The position numbers and the translations under genes are program-made. A stretch of DNA of 64,000 nt from Rikenellaceae bacterium (GTDB taxonomy: Bacteria > Bacteroidota > Bacteroidia > Bacteroidales > Rikenellaceae). The notes beneath the pieces were generated by a model. The model saw only the letters and a list, made by a program, of their open reading frames with translations. It was not told the origin of the DNA and did no database searches. The stretch is from the NCBI GenBank assembly GCA_017935625.1, contig JAGBHC010000005.1, positions 1 through 64,000 on the forward strand, read 5' to 3'. Below, in pieces: positions 6,711 through 17,277 of the stretch (positions are counted from its first letter, which is position 1; each line of letters begins with the position of its first letter).

Positions 6711-6747
6711 ACAAGTGTCAGTAGTTATCATTAAAATAGCGAATATC

Positions 6748-7419
6748 ATGAAGAAAGTTGTTGCTTTATTATTCTGTGCAGTTGTATTGGTTATGACTTC
6801 TTGTACACTCTCTAACGAGGAAAAAGCTGAGAAATTGGTTAAAGAGACGCTTAAAGATTATCTCTATCATCCAGATTCTTATAAGCCGCTATCAACAAGA
6901 GTTGATAGCATGTTCATTGATGTATCTGCTATTGAGCCTATTATGGAAATCAGCGATAAAATAAAAGATTTGATGTCCAAAATAAACAGCTGTGAAAGAA
7001 AAATTGAATTCGCTGAATCTTCTATGGACATTTGGGCTTCTAGTGGTTATTTTTCTCGATACTCTCGTGGAGAGTATGCACGAGCAAAAAAAGAAAAAAA
7101 AGAAGCCCAATCTGATTTAGATAAATATATCAAGAAACTTTCAGAGCAAATAGCTTCTCTAAAAGAAAATATTGATAAATATTACAAAGGAGTATTTACT
7201 GGTTGGATAGTAAGTCATAGATTTAGGAGTCTTAATGGTGCAGGTTCAATGACCATTCCAGGAGAAGTGATTTTCTTTTGCGATAAAGAGTTTACAACTT
7301 GTAGTGGTTATGACGTTGATAAGTTCGAGAACTTTGCAAAAATCTTGAAAATTGTAGATGAAGCAACTTCTGATGAAGATATAATTGATTATTTTAAAGA
7401 AAATAGTTTTTTACTATAA
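6748..7419 (+). CDS. Predicted lipoprotein with coiled coil, function unknown
   Basis: A 223-residue protein. I chose ATG 6748, not the upstream GTG at 6715, because it gives a clean signal: MKK, a hydrophobic core, then the lipobox MTSC with Cys19. The mature protein has a Lys/Glu-rich region of about residues 80-150 that looks like a coiled coil (SKINSCERKIEFAESS; KEKKEAQSDLDKYIKKL). The C-terminal part (FTGWIVSHRFRSLNG onward) looks globular. Codon use is AT-rich, unlike the neighbours, which suggests recent transfer together with the surrounding patch. No family recognised; the wording recalls small periplasmic lipoproteins of gut Bacteroidales. Confidence 0.75.
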   Translation: MKKVVALLFCAVVLVMTSCTLSNEEKAEKLVKETLKDYLYHPDSYKPLSTRVDSMFIDVSAIEPIMEISDKIKDLMSKINSCERKIEFAESSMDIWASSGYFSRYSRGEYARAKKEKKEAQSDLDKYIKKLSEQIASLKENIDKYYKGVFTGWIVSHRFRSLNGAGSMTIPGEVIFFCDKEFTTCSGYDVDKFENFAKILKIVDEATSDEDIIDYFKENSFLL

Positions 7420-9289: not shown

Positions 9290-9556
9290 TTATCTGCTGT
9301 GGGGCCGACGGGCTATCCGCCGGATTTGTTCCCGGTAAATCAGGCAGGCGGCGGTGAAGTAGACGCCGGTCTGAATCCAGAGGCCGCGCAGCTCGAAGGC
9401 GATGTCGGAGAGCGTCGCGCCCATCGACTGAATGCGGACATAGCCGTTCATGCCGAAGGTGGAGGGGAAGAGGCAGGCGACCCCTTTCCAGAAAGCGGGG
9501 ACGGAAGACCACGGCCACGACACGCCGGAGATGAAGAGTAGCGGCACGGATGCCAC
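9290..9556 (-). pseudogene. ABC-2 type transporter permease, C-terminal remnant
   Basis: About 88 codons read like the last transmembrane part of an ABC-2/DrrB-type export permease: [18 protein letters not shown], then a [20 protein letters not shown] loop, then a final membrane segment and a short basic tail. A full permease has about 370-400 residues, so most of the gene is missing. The homology stops at about 9550, exactly where a truncated phosphofructokinase begins on the opposite strand. I take this as a dead fragment left by a deletion or recombination. Confidence 0.7.
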
Positions 9557-10118
9557 GATAGGTTACGATACGGCCCTCAATACGATTATGGAGGCCATCG
9601 ACCGGCTGCGCGATACGGCGACGAGTCACGAACGTCTCTTCTTCGTGGAGGTCATGGGGCATACGGCGGGTTATCTCGCACTCAACGGAGCCATCGCATC
9701 GGGTGCCGAAGCGGCCATCATCCCCGAGATGGAGACCGAAGTGGACCAGCTGGCCGAGCTCATCAGCAACGGATTCCGCAAGAGCAAGAATTCGGCGATT
9801 GTATTGGTGGCGGAGAATCCGCAGACGGGCGGAGCATTGGGGTTGGCCGAACGTGTCAAAAAGGAATTTCCGCAATACGATGCCCGAGTGACGATTCTGG
9901 GACACCTCCAACGGGGCGGCTCGCCGACTTCGCTGGACCGGATTCTCGCCTCGCGTCTGGGCGAATCCGCCGTCAGAGCGCTCATGGAGGGGCAGCGGAA
10001 CGTGATGATTGGCGTAAGAAACAGCCAAATCGTCTATGTGCCTTTCTCGAAAGCCATTCAGCACGACAAAGGCATCAATCGCGACTACGTGGAACTGGTG
10101 CGGATGCTGTCGATATAA
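9553..10118 (+). pseudogene. pfkA: 6-phosphofructokinase, C-terminal remnant
   Basis: About 188 codons match the C-terminal 60% of ATP-dependent phosphofructokinase: [33 protein letters not shown] (substrate site), [23 protein letters not shown] and the end VRMLSI. The N-terminal half with the ATP loop and the catalytic TxDxD motif is missing. The open frame continues upstream to 9450, but only through DNA antisense to the ABC permease remnant, so no intact enzyme can be made. The frame itself is unbroken, which suggests a fairly recent event. Confidence 0.8.
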
Positions 10119-12283: not shown

Positions 12284-12302
12284 AAATCGGGTCTCCCGAT
12301 TT
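12284..12302. promoter_or_regulatory. Perfect palindrome upstream of the cupin-hcp operon
   Basis: AAATCGGG-TCT-CCCGATTT is a perfect 8-bp inverted repeat about 100 bp upstream of the cupin start. It lacks a good U tract in either direction (TTAG follows on the plus strand), so a protein-binding site is at least as likely as a terminator. Confidence 0.4.
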
Positions 12303-12898
12303 AGTCCATAACAAAAAACACTCCAATCCTGTTTTTTAAATAACAGATTGAGATGTTATAGTGGAAGTCCGTATGTGTCATTTCAATTGAAATGCCCGAT
12401 ATTGAATCGGATAAAGATAAGCCGGGTGTTGGGCTGTCGTACACTTTCGATTCTATTTCTTCTTGGGGTTTGAAGCAACCTGCCCATTGCAGTACGGAGA
12501 AGTTGCGCCTGTTCTTTTTCCGCAGTTCGGCGACGGACATGTTTCTCTTTGAGTTCAAGTAGAAGCTGGTTTTTCTTGAGGTATTCGCTGGGGGCGGATA
12601 TCAAAACTCTGGGGTTCGTTGTTACAGCATCTGTAAGCACCGGTGATGCTGATGAACTGTGGAATGCGGGTGCAACCGGTTTTGTGGAAAATCATTTCCA
12701 GTTTGACCATCTTAGGGCCTGGGGCCTTTGCGGCTTTGAATGTGATAGAACACTACATATCGATGTGAAAATGAAGCGTAAAACGCTAATTATTTGCTTG
12801 CTGTGATGTTTTGCATGTCAGTGGCCGGCTTCGTTGTAAATACGCGGCAATTGATTTTTCGATGGATTTCTGGATGGAATTATTTTCCCGACAGTGTG
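12303..12898. other. Gap between the hcp operon and the helicase gene, no supported gene
   Basis: About 600 bp. Three overlapping frames of 85 codons exist (minus 12301-12558 and 12383-12640, plus 12549-12806), but they compete for the same DNA, have no family I recognise and have poor start sites. A charged run in the minus frame at 12383-12640 (KKNQLLLELKEKHVRRR) could be a relic of a coiled-coil protein. Confidence 0.35.
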
Positions 12899-15676
12899 TT
12901 AATTGATATGTAAAATTTCTTTCAATTTAGTTTCTATTCGTTCCTGTTCGTTGCTTTCGGTAGTCTTCAGTCGCTCGCTGGGGATGCCGTAGAGTTCCAA
13001 TATGCGGTCTTTCATCTTGTCGCGTTTCTTTTGTAAAGAACCCTCCTTGTGATGCTGGTACCCATCGGTCTCGATGACGAGTACGGGCTGCTTGCCGACC
13101 TTGTTGTAAATCAGAAAATCGAGGTGCGTAAGGTGGTTTTCTGCATATCGGCGTTCATTTTCGTCGAGCAGCGAGAAGTCGCGAATCAACATCCGCAAAG
13201 GCAGATGGCATATGACATCGAGATGCCGCATCGTCGCGTTATTGTGAAAAATATCCTCAATCAAAGCATAGGTCAGGTTTTCGGAATCGTATTCTGAAAT
13301 CCTTTTGCGTGTGGCCAGATAAGCCATTCGGGCTTCGGTATATTGCTTGTAGAGGTAGTCGAAAATCGAATGGATTTTGCTTTCGCTAACAGTGAAGTTA
13401 TTATATTCGATGTAGGCCAGCAGGTCGCTGATGTTGCCGCTCTTTTGCTGCTTGTTGCCGGTTAAGACAAGGCAGAATTTCTGTTTGGCTCGCGACATGG
13501 CGACGTTCAACAGATTGGGGTCATCGACGAAGTCGGATATTTGATTTTCGACGGTGCTCATGACGATTGCATCCTTTTCGCGGCCTTGGAATTTATGTAC
13601 TGTCGCGATGTCGATAGGTGTTCCGATTTGTTGCTGCAACGCATTGACCTGGGCGTTGTAAGGAGCTATGATGCCGATATGTTCGGCTTCGTACGAAAGC
13701 GTCGGTAGCACTTCCTTGCGGATGACGTCGATTTCGCGTTGGTTCACATGGTGGCGGTCGTGATTGCCCTCGACCGTTTTAACGGCGCAAACGACATCGG
13801 GTTCGCCGTTGTCGCGGGTCATGATAACGAGGTTGCCGCCGTAGAATTTCCTGTTACAAAAGTCGATGATTTTCGGATGGCAGCGATAGTGCTCTTTCAG
13901 CAGGGTTTGCGGCACGCCGGGAATCGTGTGGCAGACGGATTCCAGAAAACTGTTTCGGGCGCAGTCGCAGGATTGGGGGATGGTAAATTGTCCGGCTATT
14001 TCGTCGAGTTTGAGCCGTGCTTCCGGTGCTACGACATTCGGCAGCTGCATGGAGTCGCCGACGATAACGGCGTTTCGGGCACATGAAAGTGCCAGCGCAC
14101 CAGTCTCGACCGACACCTGCGACGCTTCGTCCATGATGACGTAATCGTAAATCGTTTCGGGCGAGAGACTGCTGCGAGCAGAAAATGTTGTACTCAACAC
14201 GACGGGATATTCGGTCAGCACCTCCTGTGCCTTGAAATAGAGGTCGGAGAATAAAAATATCGGCTTGGGATGGTTAATTCCGTACTTGCGGTAGAGTGCA
14301 TTTTTCAGATACTGCATCGACCATTCGGAAAGATGCTTCGTCTGTTCCTCTGCATTCTGCGATGTAATATATGCTTCCAATTCCGCAATTTCGGTGCGCA
14401 ATACTTTGAGACGGGCATTGTAAATAGCTGCTTGCAAGTCCGATACAATAGCAGATAAGTCGCGCCGGAAGAAACCACGCGATAACCCTTTGAGCATCTG
14501 TCGGCTGCGAACCCGAATAGCAACCCAGCGGAGTTTTTGCCACATATTTCTGAAAAAGTCGGAGTGAAGAACTGTATCTTCGGCGAATTGTTGCAGGTCG
14601 AACCACAATCGGGTCAGACGGGGGATATTGTCGGTTTCCCGCAAGGTGATTTTGTAATCGGAGGTTCCGATTTCCTGCTCGAAATGGCGTTGCTCCGTTT
14701 CCAAAGCCTGCAACTCTTGTTTGGCGATGGCAAGTTGTTCTTGCTTGGCGAACAGTCTGTTCAGTAATTCGATCTGCCGGTCTATCCGTTCGAGAAATTC
14801 GGGACGGTTTGTCTCAGCAGCGCGCCAAGATGCAAGCGTCTTCGGATATTGTTTTTCGCTCTCTTGGTTTTCGATAAAATGCTGTTTGTTGTCCGAATTG
14901 CCGAGCGGTGCAGCGAGAAATCCGAACTCGTATTTGATGAGTTTTTCCAGTACGTTATTGGTCGCCGAGTTGTTGTTCGAGACGACCAGTACCGTTTTCC
15001 CGGCAACGAGGATGTTGGCGATGATGTTCAGTATGGTTTGTGTTTTGCCGGTTCCGGGAGGACCTTGAATGACGCTGACCGAATGCTCGAAAGCCTTTTG
15101 CACGGCTTTCAATTGGCTCGCGTTGCTGCCGAATGGATATATCAATCTCCGTTTCGCATACGTTTGAGGTTTGAAGAGACCGGGATTGAGATAAGTTGCC
15201 AATGCTGTTTCGTCCGACACGAACCGTACTTTGTCGTATTGTTTGGCCAGCAGTGCCGTTCCGTCATCGCCCGATAGGGCATTGGCTGCGGCGACTTGTT
15301 GCAGGTACTGGAAGATATTATTGGCCGCAGGATTGGCCAAACACGAGCTGGCAACCTGCAAATCGGAGCCTTTGTAGCTTTTCTCCGTGCCGTTCTCGAA
15401 CCGGATATGCCAGTAAGTTTGTGTATAGTCGCGAAACTTGAATATCGCCGCGATGTTTGTCAATCGACGCCCGTTGTGGGCCAACTGATAAACCGCTGGG
15501 TCGAGCGATTCCGGATTTTTCAACCATAATATCTTGTCCACTCCATAGAGATATTCTTTCGGGGAGTTGGTAAATACGATGCGATATTTCCCTGTCGTAT
15601 CCTGCCGGCAAATCTCGATTTCCCGGGTGCGGATGCAACCGTTGATAACGATAAGATTCTGCGAGGTGTCGAGCAT
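12899..15676 (-). CDS. SF1 helicase with C-terminal PD-(D/E)XK-like nuclease domain; candidate defence protein
   Basis: A 925-residue single-gene helicase-nuclease. The helicase part has a Q-motif-like NASQLKAVQKAF (185-196), Walker A GPPGTGKT (205-212), a long charged insertion with predicted coiled coil (about 285-450), DEAS (516-519), GDSMQLP (540-546), EHYRCHP (595-601), TVHKFQGREKD (692-702) and LNVAMSRAK (about 723-731). This is the Upf1/DNA2-like SF1B pattern. The C-terminus (about 800-925) has HLDFLIY, VIETDGYQHH and a lysine-rich helix (QKKRDK), as in DUF2726/DUF559 or Vsr-like endonuclease folds (Asp853, Glu869, Asp871, Lys884/887). It stands alone between AT-rich gaps with no housekeeping partner. 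The domain assignment is sound; an anti-phage role is inference. Confidence 0.85.
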   Translation of the reverse strand: MLDTSQNLIVINGCIRTREIEICRQDTTGKYRIVFTNSPKEYLYGVDKILWLKNPESLDPAVYQLAHNGRRLTNIAAIFKFRDYTQTYWHIRFENGTEKSYKGSDLQVASSCLANPAANNIFQYLQQVAAANALSGDDGTALLAKQYDKVRFVSDETALATYLNPGLFKPQTYAKRRLIYPFGSNASQLKAVQKAFEHSVSVIQGPPGTGKTQTILNIIANILVAGKTVLVVSNNNSATNNVLEKLIKYEFGFLAAPLGNSDNKQHFIENQESEKQYPKTLASWRAAETNRPEFLERIDRQIELLNRLFAKQEQLAIAKQELQALETEQRHFEQEIGTSDYKITLRETDNIPRLTRLWFDLQQFAEDTVLHSDFFRNMWQKLRWVAIRVRSRQMLKGLSRGFFRRDLSAIVSDLQAAIYNARLKVLRTEIAELEAYITSQNAEEQTKHLSEWSMQYLKNALYRKYGINHPKPIFLFSDLYFKAQEVLTEYPVVLSTTFSARSSLSPETIYDYVIMDEASQVSVETGALALSCARNAVIVGDSMQLPNVVAPEARLKLDEIAGQFTIPQSCDCARNSFLESVCHTIPGVPQTLLKEHYRCHPKIIDFCNRKFYGGNLVIMTRDNGEPDVVCAVKTVEGNHDRHHVNQREIDVIRKEVLPTLSYEAEHIGIIAPYNAQVNALQQQIGTPIDIATVHKFQGREKDAIVMSTVENQISDFVDDPNLLNVAMSRAKQKFCLVLTGNKQQKSGNISDLLAYIEYNNFTVSESKIHSIFDYLYKQYTEARMAYLATRKRISEYDSENLTYALIEDIFHNNATMRHLDVICHLPLRMLIRDFSLLDENERRYAENHLTHLDFLIYNKVGKQPVLVIETDGYQHHKEGSLQKKRDKMKDRILELYGIPSERLKTTESNEQERIETKLKEILHIN

Positions 15677-15772
15677 GCGGGGTTGGGGGATAGTTTACAA
15701 TGTTTCTCCTATGTTGAGATATGCACGGTAGGTTTCTTCTCCTACTTCTTCAATGTAGTAACTTAATTTGTG

Positions 15773-15796
15773 TATGTAAATATTTGATAATCAATT
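15773..15796. repeat. 24-bp AT-rich motif shared with the 53-kb island
   Basis: The sequence beginning TATGTAAATATTTGAT matches 53129-53152 at 22 of 24 positions. It lies about 100 bp upstream of the helicase gene start, between it and mnmE. It could be an island-edge or attachment-site scar, or a shared binding site. Confidence 0.45.
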
Positions 15797-15876
15797 TATA
15801 AATCTTTATTCTGAAATTTTAGCAACAGAATAGCAACAAATTTCCAATAATGCCTGCAAAAGTCGATTTTTGAGGC

Positions 15877-17277
15877 TCATTTTCCGATGCAGAACTTCGA
15901 AAAGATTTGGCCGAGGATTTCGTCGTTGGTGATTTCACCGGTGATGGTGCCGAGGTGGTAGAGTACGTCGCGGATGTCTTCGGCCAGCAGGTCGGCGGTC
16001 GTGCCGCAGGCCAGGGAATCCAGGGCTCTTCGCAGGGCTTCGTGGGCCCTCTGCAGGGCTTCGTAGTGGCGGATGTTGGAGACGACCGTCTCTCCGTTGT
16101 ATGCCGGGGCGGCGTCGATGCAATCGTGCAGGAAGTCGGTCAGGAGGTCGATGTTCCGATTGTGTTTGGCCGATACGGCCAGGATGCGGTCGCAGGAGGT
16201 GGCCGATGCGAGCGTCTGCCGTATCGCGGAAATGGCCTCCGGTGCAAGTTTGTCTATCTTGTTTAGCAGCAGGCAGAGGCGCTGCTCCTGTTGCAGGTCG
16301 AGGGAGGCGATGGCGCCGAGGGTCTGCTGCAGGTCGAACAAGGAGGCGTCGATAAGCAGAATGACGATGCGGGCCCGGCCGATGGCTGCGAACGTGCGTT
16401 CGATGCCCATTCGTTCGAGCCGGTCGTCGCTGCGTCGGATTCCGGCGGTGTCCGACAACCGGAACCGGATGCCGCCGATGACCAGTGTCTCCTCGATGGT
16501 GTCGCGCGTGGTTCCCGCAATGTCCGACACCATGGCGCGTTCCTCGTTGAGCAGGGTGTTGAGCAGGGTAGACTTGCCGGCGTTGGGATTGCCGACAATC
16601 GCTACGTTCACCCCCTCTTTTATGGCGTTGCCCAGGGAGAAAGAGCGTATCAGACCGAGAATCTTGTCATTCGTCTGGGTCATGATGCGATGGAGCTGCG
16701 AGCGGTCCGCGAATTCGACCTCCTCTTCCGAGAAATCGAGTTCGAGTTCGAGCAGCGACATGAGCGTGACCAGTTCGTCGCGCAGTGTCCCGAGTTCGCG
16801 CGAGTAGCCGCCCCGCATCTGGTTCAGAGCCAGCGCATGGGTTCCCCGGTCGGTGGAGGCTATCATGTCGGCGACGGCTTCGGCCTGGGAGAGGTCGAGT
16901 TTGCCGGCGAGAAAGGCCCGGACGGTGAACTCTCCGGCTTCGGCCGAACGGGCGCCGCAGCGAATGGCCGACCGCAGGATTTCGGACTGAATGTAACGGG
17001 AGCCGTGATGGGATATCTCGATACTGTTTTCTCCTGTGTATGAATGCGATGCGCGAAACACCGAAACCAACACGTCATCGATGGCGCTCCCGGTGTCGGG
17101 GTCGATGATTTCACCGTAAAGAAGGGTGTGGCCGGCTGCGTCGGAGAGCTTTTTCCGGGTTGCGGAGCGAAACAGTCTGTCGCCTATCGCCAGGGCCTGG
17201 GGGCCGCTCATGCGGATGATGCCGAGGGCGCCGCCCGAGGCGGTCGCCGGCGCTACGATGGTGTCGGTGCGATTCAT
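15877..17277 (-). CDS. mnmE: tRNA uridine-5-carboxymethylaminomethyl modification GTPase
   Basis: With MnmG it modifies the wobble uridine (U34) of certain tRNAs. 466 residues: N-terminal formyl-THF-binding domain (begins DTIVAPATASGGALGIIRMSG), helical domain, an inserted G domain with GNPNAGKST (about 227-235), DTAGIRRSDD and the NKID motif, and the C-terminal FCIGK whose cysteine is the family hallmark. It begins 7 bp after the stop of the minus-strand transglycosylase gene, so it is the distal member of that run. Identity certain. Confidence 0.97.
   Translation of the reverse strand: MNRTDTIVAPATASGGALGIIRMSGPQALAIGDRLFRSATRKKLSDAAGHTLLYGEIIDPDTGSAIDDVLVSVFRASHSYTGENSIEISHHGSRYIQSEILRSAIRCGARSAEAGEFTVRAFLAGKLDLSQAEAVADMIASTDRGTHALALNQMRGGYSRELGTLRDELVTLMSLLELELDFSEEEVEFADRSQLHRIMTQTNDKILGLIRSFSLGNAIKEGVNVAIVGNPNAGKSTLLNTLLNEERAMVSDIAGTTRDTIEETLVIGGIRFRLSDTAGIRRSDDRLERMGIERTFAAIGRARIVILLIDASLFDLQQTLGAIASLDLQQEQRLCLLLNKIDKLAPEAISAIRQTLASATSCDRILAVSAKHNRNIDLLTDFLHDCIDAAPAYNGETVVSNIRHYEALQRAHEALRRALDSLACGTTADLLAEDIRDVLYHLGTITGEITNDEILGQIFSKFCIGK

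Follow-up and report, generated by a model that had tools for sequence, protein, structure and literature searches.

A UPF1-like helicase fused to a DUF2726 nuclease at the 3′ end of mnmE in a Rikenellaceae bacterium is probably a single-gene anti-phage or anti-mobile-element protein

The pairing of a helicase motor with a nuclease is an already known kind of bacterial defense. Hhe is a DUF4011–helicase–Vsr anti-phage protein with an SF1 AAA_11/AAA_12 helicase and a Vsr-type nuclease, and Mokosh has a UPF1-like helicase and a nuclease of the PLD type. Nhi, Hna, Hachiman, and AbpAB likewise pair a motor with a nuclease. According to PMC10732053, both domains of AbpAB are required, AbpAB, Hna, and Nhi are activated by a phage single-stranded DNA (ssDNA)-binding protein, and AbpB is comparable to the DEAD-box protein DDX19B. 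DUF2726 is described in a passage of PMC3710099 as a DNase of the REase fold, fused elsewhere to AbiJ-NTD3. The main text on DefensePredictor (systems DS-1 to DS-42; PMC13092281) reports a PD-(D/E)XK nuclease in 13 of 31 further validated systems and does not contain the word 'helicase'; overlap of the family described below with these systems, whose member list stands in the supplements, is possible, our comparison covering the main text.

Here, we describe a gene that combines a UPF1-like helicase with a DUF2726 nuclease in one protein. It lies in a contig of a Rikenellaceae bacterium, of which we analyzed a stretch of 64,000 nucleotides (hereafter, the window). The features of the locus are the following:

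15877 to 17277, minus strand: mnmE (trmE), whose 3′ end faces the helicase–nuclease gene and is a putative recurrent integration site in relatives
15677 to 15876, no strand: low-GC gap from mnmE to the helicase–nuclease gene
12899 to 15676, minus strand: helicase–nuclease gene (925 amino acids), a UPF1-like SF1 helicase with a C-terminal DUF2726 nuclease of PD-(D/E)XK type
15338 to 15676, minus strand: all-beta N-terminal region without a Pfam family, residues 1–113 (secondary structure of the model)
15041 to 15064, minus strand: Walker A motif GPPGTGKT, residues 205–212, invariant in 50 of 50 sequences (alignment)
14237 to 14884, minus strand: large insertion of helices that separates helicase motifs I and II, at residues about 265–480 (model)
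14120 to 14131, minus strand: Walker B motif DEAS, residues 516–519, with D516, E517, and S519 invariant (alignment)
13466 to 13951, minus strand: AAA_12, the second RecA-like domain, residues 576–737 (Pfam)
12917 to 13288, minus strand: DUF2726 nuclease domain, residues 797–920 (Pfam and C-terminal model)
13064 to 13120, minus strand: nuclease motif D853 ... E869-T-D871, invariant in 50 of 50 sequences (alignment)
12286 to 12898, no strand: low-GC gap downstream of the helicase–nuclease gene, in which DNA shared with an Alistipes relative extends to 12775

The open reading frame (ORF) is intact, without internal stops, and the gene is present in a single copy in its own genome (a draft of 2.18 Mb in 54 contigs). 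Both helicase families exceed their Pfam cut-offs (AAA_11 at residues 184–549, 2e-28; AAA_12 at residues 576–737, 7e-29), as does DUF2726 (PF10881; residues 797–920, 50.7 bits against a cut-off of 24.7, 1.9e-13), whereas DUF559 stays below its own (17.4 bits against 20.6). We aligned the protein with 49 full-length relatives that are 31–87 per cent identical to it (alignment A1, 50 of 57 long rows, with duplicates and distant helicases left out). Invariant in A1 are the helicase motifs G205–T212, D516–E517, G540–D541, Q697–G698, and S728–R729, as well as D853, E869, D871, G872, Q882, R885, and K889 of the nuclease domain, and selection therefore seems to have retained the two activities jointly. 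A preliminary description of this gene had read it as a complete SF1 helicase with a C-terminal nuclease domain and had suggested profile searches of the C-terminus; the Pfam scores and the invariant Walker and D853/E869 residues agree with it on both counts. That the protein is a helicase–nuclease is near certain.

The same description could not place the gene in a named system, and this holds for PADLOC 2.0.0 and NCBIfam 20.0, in which the full architecture has no name. The top PADLOC models (MkoA, MkoC, PDC-S37, and Hhe) match stretches of the helicase only. The Hhe model covers residues 490–676 (6.6e-21), but our protein is half as long as Hhe, has neither DUF4011 nor DUF3320 in a Pfam scan, and scores 90.5 bits with NF042953 against a cut-off of 2000. 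MkoA and MkoC are the best PADLOC matches (1.2e-54 and 6e-47), but they align with the helicase part alone, and in the Pfam scan the nuclease is DUF2726, with no PLD domain. Nhi, Hna, Hachiman, and AbpAB consist of other helicase and nuclease families, to judge from their descriptions; the PADLOC and NCBIfam matches include no Nhi or Hna model, and such models may not be in either library. All other NCBIfam scores likewise fall far short of their cut-offs, among them those for the IGHMBP2 family (TIGR00376; 159.7 bits against 348.9) and for the PLuB helicase-like and ProA families (116.2 and 128.8 bits against 999 and 1500). Compared with known DUF2726 proteins, the fusion partner here is a UPF1-like helicase, and we found no description of such a fusion in the titles and abstract beginnings that we searched, nor any paper under four accession numbers of relatives. 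We judge the protein to be a new variant of the known helicase–nuclease kind of defense.

An AlphaFold2 model of the whole protein (34 sequences) has a mean pLDDT of 88.6, and the C-terminal 171 residues modeled separately have one of 85.1. The core of the model (residues 115–773) is most similar to Ighmbp2 (Z 24.0, rmsd 2.8, 428 residues aligned), followed by UPF1 and Dna2, with Z from 24.0 to 20.4 for matches to the IGHMBP2/UPF1/Dna2 helicase fold. Together with the SF1 motifs and the AAA_11 and AAA_12 domains, this match identifies a UPF1-like SF1 helicase. It differs from IGHMBP2/SMUBP2, UPF1, and Dna2 in having the helical insertion, the N-terminal beta region, and the C-terminal DUF2726. 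UPF1 has only a short subdomain at the position of the insertion, which in the model comprises helices at residues 288–336, 348–367, 374–394, 407–439, and 442–465; the insertion had been noted earlier as coiled-coil-like and about 165 residues long, and its helical nature stands, but it is rather longer than that.

The C-terminal model resembles the homing endonuclease I-Bth0305I (3r3p; Z 10.1, 93 aligned), the putative endonuclease 3hrl (Z 9.4), and Vsr (1vsr; Z 8.1, rmsd 2.6, 93 aligned). Common arrangements reach Z values close to 8, but the assignment is supported here by a list made up mostly of nucleases of one fold and by the concordant Pfam result. In a Foldseek search, the sole match below 0.001 is the restriction enzyme BstEII. 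With the conserved D...E-x-D/K motif, these matches assign the domain to the PD-(D/E)XK/Vsr-like fold, and the concern raised beforehand that the C-terminus might not model as a nuclease can be set aside. A sequence search for solved relatives of the nuclease domain found none, and we discarded 'Upx' (9wuf, Z 7.4) as a candidate relative, it being one among many tied middling matches.

The solved structures nearest to the helicase core are mostly RNA helicases (UPF1, Sen1, Senataxin, and Aquarius), as would be expected if the protein had the same defense role but acted on RNA, its UPF1-type motor surveying phage transcripts and its C-terminus cutting RNA or transcribed DNA. The top profile match by sequence, however, is a DNA enzyme, Dna2 (E 5.8e-39), and most nuclease matches of the C-terminal model cut DNA (homing endonuclease, Vsr, TnsA, BpuSI, and BstEII), although the list also contains mitoribosome chains and a FASTKD4 module. 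We consider an RNA substrate unlikely and DNA the more likely one.

Relatives are widespread but patchy. A scan of GTDB contigs yielded 44 of them (a few being distant helicases only), whose names place them in Bacteroidota and Bacillota, with one in Spirochaetota and a few elsewhere; the closest two are from Alistipes (87 and 85 per cent identity). Within the family of the window's bacterium, 16 of 200 genomes have a match. Four relatives (L029, L033, L034, and L037) are split into two ORFs each, and a fifth, L060, the only one of these included in A1, has one in-frame stop, which points to breakage or misassembly of some copies. The tree of relatives follows phylum and can be explained by few phylum changes; transfer between phyla is thus unsupported. 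Carriage by phages is also unsupported: a phage collection gave four matching records, none with 80 per cent coverage, and the matches listed from a viral scan include four short helicase-motif matches only, both being weak and barely informative tests.

Defense genes are strongly enriched near the relatives. At a threshold of 1e-10, PADLOC matched 185 families among 148 near neighbors (of 169 listed; we excluded one self-relative and 20 neighbors whose loci were split, partial, or on phage contigs), against one match, the surely irrelevant GlgB, among 135 control ORFs (of 149) from 18 arbitrary stretches of genomes of the window's family. Because the 185 families overlap and are not a count of proteins, and because the neighbors come from several phyla and the controls from a single family, we attach no fold value to this enrichment. 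In individual loci, ZacA and ZacB of Azaca (G086) or an McrB-like AAA_5 protein (G053) directly adjoin the helicase–nuclease gene, HsdR and HsdM are nearby (G006), or a type IV enzyme lies immediately upstream together with a PDC-S07 protein (L015); a type IV neighbor is accompanied by NUDIX. TIR proteins recur: L003 has a TPR-S protein as well as a ThsB-type (Thoeris-type) TIR, and TIR neighbors occur in L004 and L047. A Parabacteroides record has TIR, N-6 methylase, and SNF2 genes around the relative. Not all copies reside in defense islands, as the neighbors include an AcrB-type pump (L010), a TonB receptor (L068), a transketolase (L002), and metabolic genes (L046), and a Pfam scan of the neighborhood found no defense gene adjoining the window copy.

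Clustering of the neighbors at 65 loci did not reveal a fixed partner gene, none being common to more than six. The commonest neighbor is a 134-aa protein (the tested member is the PADLOC candidate PDC-S07), found in L015 (6544–9989), L009, L016, L026, L013, and L031; in four of these six loci, which span two phyla, it occurs with a cluster of type IV restriction proteins of 1010–1057 aa. In an Oribacterium locus (L019, 4454–9977), the ORFs directly upstream encode a further SF1 helicase-like protein of 829 aa and a protein of 1005 aa with GajB/UvrD-like matches.

We rejected a housekeeping role in view of the patchy presence and the variable neighbors. Conserved housekeeping surroundings had been named in advance as an observation that would count against defense; the sites are instead variable and often defense-rich or integrase-associated. 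A more specialized cellular role would be that of a bacterial counterpart of Dna2, an accessory enzyme of DNA repair or replication that was transferred incidentally. Dna2 also couples a UPF1-like helicase to a nuclease, and the sequence match to it is the strong one given above. Its nuclease precedes its helicase, however, whereas the order here is the opposite; moreover, the other 184 of the 200 family genomes, some of them incomplete, are without a match, and the neighbors of relatives are rich in defense genes. We regard a repair function as very unlikely.

The gene's position relative to mnmE recurs. Among 29 Bacteroidota loci, mnmE is within the fetched stretch in five (the window, L004, L011, L073, and L077). 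A simple calculation from length predicts 0.21 (P about 2e-6, assuming 2.4-Mb genomes and independent loci, with L013 and L031 being near duplicates). In four of the five loci, the helicase–nuclease gene lies 3′ of mnmE, and in L004 it lies 5′ of it; in genome G021, it is some 12 kb downstream. When we inspected the 3′ flanks of mnmE in 20 genomes of the family, 9 held a member of one gene cluster starting within 1.5 kb. The tested member is a tyrosine integrase (Phage_integrase and Phage_int_SAM_5), and the others were assigned through BLAST clustering. In one of these nine genomes (G046, locus L127), the end of mnmE recurs as an exact 17-bp copy at a point 13 kb downstream of the gene, past the integrase; this copy is longer than any match of 60 random probes in the locus (13 at most). 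In L011, a second version of the final 60 nucleotides of mnmE lies at a distance of 8.4 kb (identical at 50 of 60 positions and still reading KIHSQEVLNNIFSKFCIGK plus stop), and the repeats bracket the helicase–nuclease gene, an Eco57I methylase, and a type IIG enzyme. The direct repeats of L127 and L011 suggest that mnmE serves as an attachment site in Bacteroidales. A parallel is SGI1, whose site in gamma-proteobacteria is given in PMC8409611 as the 3′ end of trmE. In the window, no att repeat is better than chance (downstream, even the best candidate mismatches at 6 of 21 positions) and BLAST found no integrase near the gene; the window copy would therefore be a remnant or a later recombinant. 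We rejected a repeat candidate in L135 (4 of 21 mismatches), which is within chance (2 of 200 random 21-mers).

The flanking DNA fits an acquired gene. In blastn alignments with the two Alistipes relatives, similarity begins 6–8 bp before the start codon and ends 45–124 bp past the stop, and the remaining flanks do not align with the window. The helicase–nuclease product of Alistipes senegalensis is 85 per cent identical to the window protein, compared with 69 per cent for a ParA homolog and 54 per cent for a PpiC/SurA-type homolog from the same genome (both named from sequence); a third comparison protein, named likewise as ArgF-type, gave only an uninformative paralog-like match of 30 per cent. 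The GC content of the gene is 0.45–0.54, against 0.58–0.63 across mnmE and the next gene, and its flanks are AT-rich, as described earlier (0.43 at 12300–12899 and 0.435 at 15300–15899); the contrast is weaker on the other side, where a hydroxylamine-reductase-like gene has 0.53–0.56. The evidence that the gene is mobile cargo is strong.

The preliminary description also set the gene next to a genome scar. The nearest candidate is a phosphofructokinase (PFK) remnant (9450–10118, plus strand), but two intact ORFs and a distance of 2.8 kb separate it from the gene, which makes 'next to' generous. The remnant matches only positions 130–277 of the PFK model, and the genome has two other PFK matches, one of them full-length with a strong score. 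Elsewhere in the window, an AT-rich stretch (6–8 kb, GC 0.41) contains a 234-aa ORF with a lipoprotein-like start (6715–7419, plus strand), for which no Pfam family exceeds its cut-off.

A diverged relative (32 per cent identical in A1) is present in 643 of 5426 complete Escherichia coli genomes, in 637 with at least 80 per cent of the query. All copies in this collection are chromosomal, and a record submitted as a plasmid contains one more. In the three copies that we viewed (L048, L066, and L067), genes for a PAPS reductase and an IbrB-type protein follow the relative, to which a functional link is possible, and one viewed copy is in an island by tRNA-Phe, with an integrase. The listed O157:H7 strains have two annotated features under the match, which is one base shorter, suggesting a broken copy; other strains have intact ones.

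The association with an integration site and the occurrence of the E. coli relatives in genomic islands could also mean that the gene serves the mobile element itself, in its maintenance or in the exclusion of rival elements and plasmids, rather than phage defense in the narrow sense. However, no transfer or integrase gene was seen close to the copies in the window and in L002, and relatives adjoin many different defense systems. We find such a role quite unlikely.

Our preferred reading, which we hold to be likely, is a self-contained, horizontally acquired anti-phage or anti-mobile-element protein, a motor with a DNA-cutting nuclease, at a mobile-element hotspot at the 3′ end of mnmE. A defense role counting the RNA and anti-element variants, which we infer from genomic context, is at least as likely, and the same context supports the one-gene anti-phage system that the preliminary description had proposed. 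By analogy with AbpAB, Hna, and Nhi, the motor is expected to load on exposed phage ssDNA and the tethered nuclease to cut. Most likely, the UPF1-like motor would load on single-stranded or branched nucleic acid exposed during phage DNA replication and would translocate along it, with the long helical insertion perhaps acting as a clamp or regulator. The tethered Vsr/DUF2726-type nuclease would then cut the engaged DNA, and the phage genome would be degraded or the cell killed. Of these elements, the trigger is a guess.

More broadly, we suggest, at somewhat below even confidence, that these proteins constitute a widespread one-protein immune family, separate from all named systems, in which a UPF1-like surveillance motor with its own Vsr-type nuclease senses intermediates of phage replication or transcription; the family would extend across Bacteroidota, Bacillota, and Spirochaetota, with the diverged form in E. 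coli, and would ride mnmE-targeting islands in gut Bacteroidales. If so, proteins that databases call 'AAA domain-containing protein' would include a compact immune protein, and the E. coli relative, with its hundreds of complete genomes, would make the family directly testable. The 3′ end of mnmE would be a landing site for defense genes in Bacteroidales, paralleling the trmE site of SGI1, and UPF1-type motors would serve as nucleic-acid sentinels with a built-in cutter.
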